Below the pieces are notes generated by a model, which searched no databases, was not told where the DNA came from, and was given only the letters and a program-made list of their open reading frames with translations. 15,288 nt of DNA from Dehalococcoidia bacterium (GTDB lineage: Bacteria > Chloroflexota > Dehalococcoidia > SZUA-161), in assembly GCA_030619685.1 (NCBI GenBank), contig JAUXAX010000053.1:1-15288 (forward strand), read 5' to 3'. This document shows positions 7,205 through 8,493 of this stretch, in pieces; the first letter of the stretch is position 1; each line of letters opens with the position of its first letter. The position numbers and the translations under genes were made by a program.

Positions 7205-8059
7205 CTAGCGTGGAAAACGTAATTGCTTCTCCCTTAGCGGCCCGACCACAGGTCTATCGTCTAAAACCTTGCTCCTGAAATCCTCTTGTTGCTTATCATA
7301 GTCGAAGGACAAATCTGATAAGGCCGTAATAAGATCTTCAGCTCTGCGATAGTCTCCGTCAGCGTCTGGACGCCTAAAGACCGCGTTAGCCTCCAATGAA
7401 GGAAGCACTCTCCTCAAGTCAGCCCACTGAGCGGAGAGGTGTTTGGCCTTTTCCAAGGGCGACTTGACCCTAAGGTCTACAGTGGCAATTAGAACCCTCA
7501 AAACTTTGGCTGAGGCCGTATATGAAAAATCGATCACCCATGGTATAGCGCCTTGTATCGTTTGGTTTTCTTCTATATCTGGCAAAATGTCCCAGTCGGT
7601 GAAATCCCTTCGTAACCTCGTGTGTACCCTAGGGCCTAACGGAGCCATGCGAGCAAGCAGGGGCCCAGGCAGAGCACTGTATACTAAGCTATACACTCCG
7701 AGCATAGCTCTAATTGTATCGTGGAACGCTTCCGCTTCCTCACCTGGACGTACTTCTTTTACAATCTCACCATTTGATAGCTGCATCCCAGCGCTGGCGA
7801 CTATCTCTCTAGCAAGTGCCATTCTTCTAGCACTGGCTTCCAACTCTGCACCAGATAGGAATAGATACTCAGCCACCCTTCCTCCATCGGAAAAAGTCAG
7901 TCTGCCATCGCCTTTGTCGATGACTCGCACAACTAGCGGGTCATTCTCAGGGGTCAAATAAGGCGTAGACACAATGTAGCCAGTTGGCGTCCGCTCAACC
8001 TGAAATCTCGACGCCAGAAATGACAGATACTCGCTGACCAATGGGTAATCAATGTTCAT
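7205..8059 (-). CDS. DUF1828/DUF1829-like protein of unknown function
   Basis: No enzymatic function is recognised. The 284-residue protein resembles, from memory, the DUF1828 (N-terminal) plus DUF1829 (C-terminal) architecture. The N-terminal block has a Y-STPYL element (28-35), a spaced acidic/hydrophobic strand, GRLTFSDGGRVAEYLFLSG (52-70; family proteins show an LTDDG-type signature), then A-REIVASAGM and a leucine-rich helix to about 130. The C-terminal block includes IPWVIDFSY (172-180), a VLRVLIATVDLR strand and an acidic end. No signal peptide, membrane segment or DNA-binding helix-turn-helix is evident. Its ATG overlaps the stop of the preceding gene (ATGA, 8056-8059) without its own clear ribosome binding site, and its stop is 2 bp from rsmH. 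Base composition appears lower in GC than the neighbours by eye. Members of this family often sit in mobile or phage-related DNA (recollection, to be checked). Confidence 0.72.
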   Translation of the reverse strand: MNIDYPLVSEYLSFLASRFQVERTPTGYIVSTPYLTPENDPLVVRVIDKGDGRLTFSDGGRVAEYLFLSGAELEASARRMALAREIVASAGMQLSNGEIVKEVRPGEEAEAFHDTIRAMLGVYSLVYSALPGPLLARMAPLGPRVHTRLRRDFTDWDILPDIEENQTIQGAIPWVIDFSYTASAKVLRVLIATVDLRVKSPLEKAKHLSAQWADLRRVLPSLEANAVFRRPDADGDYRRAEDLITALSDLSFDYDKQQEDFRSKVLDDRPVVGPLREKQLRFPR

Positions 8060-8493
8060 CGTAGAGGGAAACCTCGCTGTATAGGGGGTAATATGTTAAT
8101 ATTGCAGTTGTCTAAAAATGCTACGAGCGCATCGTAAAAGTCATGGGTGGGCATGTCCTTCACTTGCCGTGCCATTGCACCTCTAGGCAATTGGTTGGTA
8201 GGGTAATGTTCGTGTGGTCCTGGCACATGCTGTCCACCAGGATTGCGGTGGCAATCATGAGTATGCCACTTTCGGATTAGTTGAGTTCGCTTTGCTGTGA
8301 GCGCCATCTCGAATTCACCTTCCAAACGCTCTATCGCTCTCAATCTAAGACTTTCGCCACTCCTTGCTACCACCTCGACATCTACGCGATTTGTCTGAGG
8401 CCCTTTCCTGGCCTCTATGATGCGCCTTGATGGGACATACTTTTCAACACGATAAAGCCGGTCGGCGAAGTCTTCCAGACTTTCTTGCGGCAA
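8056..8493 (-). CDS. Small His-rich hypothetical protein, partner of DUF1828-like gene
   Basis: The function is unknown. The 145-residue protein starts at TTG (8493-8491): an in-frame TGA directly precedes it and AAGG lies about 8 nt upstream, so no longer start is possible. Seen: an N-terminal part with alternating charged strands (about 20-70), then a compact His/Cys cluster from H77 to H96 (HTHDCHRNPGG, then HVPGPHEHYP), a pattern that could bind metal or form an active site. A hydrophobic C-terminal helix follows (FYDALVAFLDNCNIN, 119-133). The HRNP...HxH pattern with a C-terminal F--CNI segment recalls small DUF6978-type proteins, but this is memory only. It overlaps the DUF1828-like gene by 4 nt and lies 58 bp after mraZ, so the pair probably belongs to the mraZ transcript. 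Confidence 0.7.
   Translation of the reverse strand: MPQESLEDFADRLYRVEKYVPSRRIIEARKGPQTNRVDVEVVARSGESLRLRAIERLEGEFEMALTAKRTQLIRKWHTHDCHRNPGGQHVPGPHEHYPTNQLPRGAMARQVKDMPTHDFYDALVAFLDNCNINILPPIQRGFPLR

Follow-up and report, generated by a model that had tools for sequence, protein, structure and literature searches.

A horizontally acquired DUF6978-DUF1828 gene pair, a candidate phage-defence module, at the mraZ/rsmH junction of a Dehalococcoidia division operon

We analysed a 15,288-nt stretch of DNA from a Dehalococcoidia bacterium (contig JAUXAX010000053.1, assembly GCA_030619685.1; hereafter the window), in which two genes, M24A and M24B, separate mraZ from rsmH in a cell-division operon. 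It is well supported that the pair is a horizontally acquired phage-defence candidate, and its insertion at the mraZ/rsmH junction is recent. As to its mechanism, the best reading, which we slightly favour, is a toxin-antitoxin system of the abortive-infection type. The genes concerned are the following.

8552..8980, reverse strand: mraZ (TIGR00242, 133 bits; Pfam MraZ, 1.4e-32)
8056..8493, reverse strand: M24A (DUF6978), proposed toxin, 145 residues, TTG start (PF22398, E = 3.4e-7; PDC-M24A, 1.7e-6)
7205..8059, reverse strand: M24B (DUF1828), proposed antitoxin or sensor, 284 residues, ATG start (PF08861, E = 8.2e-10; PDC-M24B, 5.7e-18)
6279..7202, reverse strand: rsmH (TIGR00006, 339 bits), ATG start
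5171..6256, reverse strand: ftsZ (Pfam Tubulin and FtsZ_C)

A preliminary description of the window had stated that the mraZ-rsmH pair is split by two genes tightly integrated into the operon, and the coordinates bear this out, with both flanking genes genuine by profile. M24A and M24B overlap by 4 nt (8056-8059), M24B ends 2 nt before the ATG of rsmH (7203-7204), and the mraZ stop is separated from M24A by 58 nt (8494-8551). An in-frame stop codon lies immediately 5' of the M24A TTG, so that an earlier start is impossible.

Profile searches assigned both proteins to known families. M24A matched Pfam DUF6978 (31.1 bits; cut-off, 29.6), and M24B matched Pfam DUF1828 (39.3 bits; cut-off, 22) at residues 32-122, within its N-terminal domain.

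7694..7966, reverse strand: DUF1828 domain of M24B (residues 32-122, Pfam boundaries)

Both proteins also matched the PADLOC system PDC-M24 (PDC-M24A, DUF6978; PDC-M24B, DUF1828/DUF1829) in the same order, adjacent and on the same strand; we take PDC to stand for 'phage-defence candidate'. The window pair is a divergent member, with weak M24A matches, PDC-M24B coverage of residues 1-129 only, no detectable DUF1829, and a location in a division operon. The earlier label of a DUF1828/DUF1829-like second protein thus holds for DUF1828, while the Pfam search detected no DUF1829 in the window M24B. Among five M24B relatives scanned with Pfam, DUF1829 scored above the cut-off in two (L082 and L094) and slightly below it in one (L087), and was unlisted in two (L088 and L081); an iterated profile, with the window protein among its seeds, aligned over 1-249 of 256. 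Similarly, M24A does have 145 residues, but it is not His-rich as had been described: it contains seven histidines, six of them within residues 77-96. NCBIfam gave no match for either protein at E up to 1. Close protein searches found one further homologue of each (57% identity for M24A and 66% for M24B), both reported from a 1396-bp contig, probably one and the same. Judged from these sequences, both open reading frames (ORFs) are real genes. Our literature search found neither a mechanism nor a dedicated paper for PDC-M24. In the available text on DefensePredictor (PMC13092281), HipAD/DS-6 is likewise a two-gene defence system whose second protein has DUF1829; however, in HipAD/DS-6 the first gene encodes a HipA-like kinase and the second protein contains DUF3037 as well, and the Pfam scan of the window pair matched neither a HipA-like kinase nor DUF3037.

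Comparison with related genomes indicated that the pair was inserted. In the nearest family, mraZ adjoins rsmH in all nine genomes with no M24 gene between them; the spacing is almost gapless in eight, and the ninth (G419) has a gap of about 130 nt without an M24 match. In a wider scan of genome contigs for RsmH, of which the best 80 of 235 loci were kept, none of the 80 contained M24A or M24B by tblastn at E <= 1e-4, and MraZ was visible in 70 within the stretch covered. The closest of these 80 loci belongs to Dehalococcoidia E44_bin56 (91% RsmH identity), and in the six closest loci (L001-L006) the mraZ stop touches or almost touches the rsmH start. The window RsmH starts with MKLSVHAPV, whereas all nine family relatives start longer (for example, MTTLTMTNAPSHEPV in L162); its N-terminus (7150-7202) is thus shorter, and its sequence diverges as far as the HxPV motif. 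This difference from all nine relatives marks the boundary of the insertion, which thus also replaced the first rsmH codons.

The composition of the pair is also foreign. A lower GC content had been noted by eye, and it is confirmed by the values of 0.495 (M24A) and 0.496 (M24B) against 0.540-0.587 in the 11 other window genes. The GC content at third codon positions (GC3) is 0.452 and 0.488, respectively, against 0.576-0.671. Codon usage deviates as well: the mean codon score of M24A is -0.097 and that of M24B -0.082, whereas the other genes range from +0.035 to +0.109. Within the same order, an M24B-like gene was found at other sites in three of 18 genomes, preceded by M24A in all three: beside radA in G002 (L081), near a thiolase gene in G419, and after purQ in G416, with the neighbours named by eye. 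G002 and G419 are of the same family as the window. The pair, present at unrelated sites, thus comes and goes. In G416 (G416:C21, L161), a small HicB-like ORF directly precedes the pair, by eye.

These data bear on two other explanations of the locus. If the pair were an ancestral component of the division cluster that its relatives have lost, its tight integration into the operon would be expected. However, the absence of any M24 match at the 80 RsmH loci kept and at the site in the nine genomes of the nearest family, the foreign GC3 and codon usage, and the presence of relatives in mobile and defence DNA already contradict this, and we consider it extremely improbable. The preliminary description had named the presence of the pair at this site in all close relatives, together with absence of homologues from mobile or defence contexts, as evidence against its proposal of a captured module; the opposite was found on both counts. 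An artefactual join of two sequences in a chimeric metagenome contig is also very improbable. The arrangement has been seen in this one contig only, but the reading frames are intact across both junctions and rsmH has acquired a new start. In addition, the M24B record occurs in two contigs, and an identical M24A occurs in a 1479-bp contig; since the flanks of these contigs are unseen, they support the pair and not its junctions.

The capture of a mobile or defence module, as proposed earlier, agrees with the contexts of the relatives. One M24B relative (L082) matched 16 phage records. In all nine of the phage records that were opened (L121-L124 and L127-L131), M24A precedes M24B. Eight of the nine have an integrase or tyrosine recombinase gene downstream of the pair on the same strand, directly next to it in five, after one gene in one, and after two genes in two; six of these eight loci also have a gene annotated as a repressor, regulator, or helix-turn-helix protein upstream on the same strand. 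In phage Lj965, the gene after next is annotated as superinfection exclusion. The ninth locus (L128), where the stretch shows no integrase, is close to leukotoxin genes. Plasmid records carrying the pair, as found by profile, came from Aerococcus, Haloarcula, Acetobacter, a conjugative IncP plasmid, and Staphylococcus pseudintermedius. A 2730-base plasmid record (CP015628.1, L132) carries a predicted fosfomycin transferase gene together with an M24 pair that is truncated where the record begins and ends.

Among 13 Chloroflexota loci that were opened (L138-L150), defence operons were seen at two; at the remaining 11 the pair seemed isolated on inspection by eye, without a full scan. At L149 (G372:C3:105000-123000), the pair is flanked by HmaA and HmaB, HmaC and a QatA-like gene lie farther out, and the pair may possibly be an accessory guard of the Hma system. 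At L139, a type III-like methylase follows the pair, and an 874-residue protein ahead of it had no PADLOC match. In a viral contig (L096), the pair is followed by an HmaB-like DUF1156 methylase with an overlapping start and then by a PbeA-like gene. The relatives therefore sit in two or three defence operons, besides phages and plasmids.

M24A and M24B form a constant two-gene unit. M24B was the next gene on the same strand in all 37 M24A-anchored loci of four phyla (L081-L093 and L171-L194); the training of the profiles used had included the first 13 of these loci but not the remaining 24. The M24A homologues found by profile search numbered 1613, of which the top 120 were listed. DUF6978 was found in one of 16 relatives and in none of three further genomes. 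In four phyla, the genomes that carry it numbered 12 of 400, 6 of 387, 8 of 395, and 10 of 358 (11, 5, 8, and 10 above the curated cut-off).

The pattern of broken genes points indirectly to M24A as the toxin and the DUF1828 domain as its neutraliser. Among the 55 loci where both genes could be judged, M24A was interrupted or lacked its N-terminus next to a whole M24B in six (L090, L128, L133, L184, L187, and L188); at L188 (G1534:C26), the N-terminal piece of M24A is distant and in another frame, as though something had inserted within the gene, while M24B is intact. No intact M24A without DUF1828 was found among the 55. At L091 (G269:C1), M24B is shortened to the DUF1828 domain (132 residues) beside an intact M24A and is a natural minimal pair, and at L092 M24B is split with DUF1828 retained. 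The counts are small, and some of the phage loci are mutually related; as most loci were found via M24A, losses of M24A are harder to see.

Several residues of M24A are highly conserved. The weighted conservation, calculated from 95 sequences (19.9 effective clusters), was 93% for K18, 95% for H82, 95% for N84, 80% for P85, 90% for H94, and 85% for H96, a set that would suit a catalytic or metal-binding site.

8206..8250, reverse strand: conserved His motif of M24A (residues 82-96, H-x-N-P ... H-x-H; weighted conservation)

The AlphaFold2 model of M24A (mean predicted local distance difference test score, pLDDT, 82.9) consists of a helix, a run of strands, and a helix. This predicted fold is resembled by that of the toxin TumE of the TumE-TumA (DUF6516) system, described in the available part of PMC10584680 as two helices packed on a seven-stranded antiparallel sheet, encoded in a two-gene arrangement, toxic in E. 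coli, and reducing translation. When M24A was compared with 21 TumE rows by hhalign, the scores were 28.4 and 26.3 in the two directions, against 22.8 and 25.0 for the best of 300 column shuffles and 13-15 for reversed profiles and M24B, and the alignment superimposed both His motifs (DN-x-PH and PHHKH). With hhalign probabilities of 29-64% (local mode) and 13-30% (global mode), the likeness is suggestive and not a proof of membership. The comparison with small profiles found nothing, and Pfam TumE (PF20126) had no match in the window pair at E up to 1. We regard M24A as a suggestive candidate for a distant TumE-like toxin. The two systems share the two-gene organisation, and neither TumE, according to the accessible text of the TumE paper, nor M24A has a confident Protein Data Bank match; they differ in gene order and partner, since in that text TumE is mostly encoded downstream and its partners are RelB-like or unknown, whereas M24A is upstream with a DUF1828 partner.

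The AlphaFold2 model of M24B is weak overall (pLDDT 56.5) and good in the N-terminal domain only. Fold-comparison rows spanning residues 2-131 resemble secretion chaperones, and the predicted fold of this domain may be of the type III secretion chaperone/YbjN kind (ExsC, CesT, SicP, InvB, SigE, and YbjN). The likeness is in fold only: M24B had no sequence match to these proteins, and Foldseek gave nothing at E <= 1e-3.

The toxin-antitoxin mechanism has to be weighed against an alternative that we find less convincing, a defence or accessory module of another type. In it, M24A and M24B would act jointly, for instance in a complex that recognises or processes nucleic acids and aids methylase systems (Hma, type III-like), and M24A would not be toxic by itself. 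Two observations favour this alternative: HmaA and HmaB flank the pair in L149 and a methylase follows it in L139 and L096, and the poorly modelled C-terminal part of M24B could be enzymatic. Nevertheless, no such operon was seen around the pair in 11 of the 13 Chloroflexota loci (by eye) or in the nine phage loci opened, the breaks hit M24A and spare DUF1828, and the M24A profile bears a suggestive likeness to that of the TumE toxin.

In the toxin-antitoxin mechanism, the PDC-M24 pair, horizontally acquired and inserted at the mraZ/rsmH junction, would work as an abortive-infection module. M24A would be a distantly TumE-like toxin with a K-H-N-H-H polar site that would probably halt translation or cleave RNA, and M24B would hold M24A by binding it through the DUF1828 domain, while the C-terminal part of M24B (DUF1829 in several relatives) may sense the trigger or bind DNA. 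If M24B lost its function during infection, M24A would be released. In the window, an MraZ-repressed promoter would drive transcription of the pair, and because the gap is only 2 nt, we propose that rsmH translation is coupled to M24B.

The region upstream of mraZ is compatible with such transcription.

8981..9014, reverse strand: MraZ-type operator, four GTGG boxes at -34, -24, -14, and -4 from the mraZ start (conserved array)
9014..9042, reverse strand: putative operon promoter, TTGACA, 17-nt spacer, TAAAAG (read from the sequence)

The four boxes occupy identical positions in all six closest loci (L001-L006), and such an array occurred in none of 200000 Markov sequences of 60 nt. They fit the Mollicutes MraZ site, given as (AAAGTGKN3)3 in the available text of PMC5282649; AAAGTG[T/G] repeats are also quoted for MraZ in the part of PMC8475190 at hand. 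The TTGACA...TGTGCTAAAA block upstream of mraZ is also present in L001-L005, with a variant in L006, and the promoter-like sequence overlaps the first GTGG box. A generic promoter scan did not list it because its -10 element lacks the final T that the scan demands. The same scan found no match in the 58-nt gap between mraZ and M24A and listed one promoter inside mraZ, with a total of two in the region against 3.4 expected by chance. Given the clean junctions and the gap without a promoter match, the pair is most likely transcribed from the MraZ-type promoter.

The earlier suggestion that the pair is under MraZ control is thus supported in its anatomy, and the functional tie to division that it implied is conjectural. 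We find it fairly probable that the pair is a regulatory passenger, a selfish or defence pair that landed after mraZ by chance, would use any promoter, and is functionally linked neither to MraZ nor to division. Such a passenger would agree with the toxin-antitoxin mechanism and would depart from it only in what the site means. The pairs beside radA, thiolase, and purQ, together with the empty site in all nine family genomes, agree with a passenger, whereas the clean coding junctions and the absence of promoter matches from the 58-nt gap favour transcription from the MraZ-type promoter. A meaningful link of the pair to division control is doubtful. Still more speculative, and in our view unlikely, is the idea that DUF6978-DUF1828 is a new toxin-antitoxin superfamily, with a TumE-like toxin and a secretion-chaperone-like neutraliser, that is wired here to the MraZ division switch. 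As rsmH, ftsZ, and the antitoxin would share one MraZ-repressed transcript, a phage shutting off or perturbing the division transcription of its host would, in this proposal, starve the antitoxin and trigger arrest.

The division cluster itself is short (5171-8980). Many bacteria carry murein genes inside this cluster; here it comprises mraZ, rsmH, and, after a 22-nt gap, ftsZ, with murein genes absent. The same short order and the four-box operator are shared with L001-L006, from which the window differs by the two foreign genes separating mraZ from rsmH. Elsewhere in the window, a T-box leader (Rfam RF00230, 99.5 bits; 3289-3566, reverse strand) lies upstream of trpE-trpD. It extends into the 5' end of the trpE ORF as listed, and the true trpE start is therefore probably farther downstream.

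The broken-gene pattern, the TumE-like motif, and the chaperone-like domain make the proposed toxin and neutraliser roles concretely and cheaply testable. With its insertion into a conserved division operon, below an intact MraZ-type operator, the pair provides a natural test of whether a housekeeping division promoter can run a defence or toxin-antitoxin pair harmlessly.
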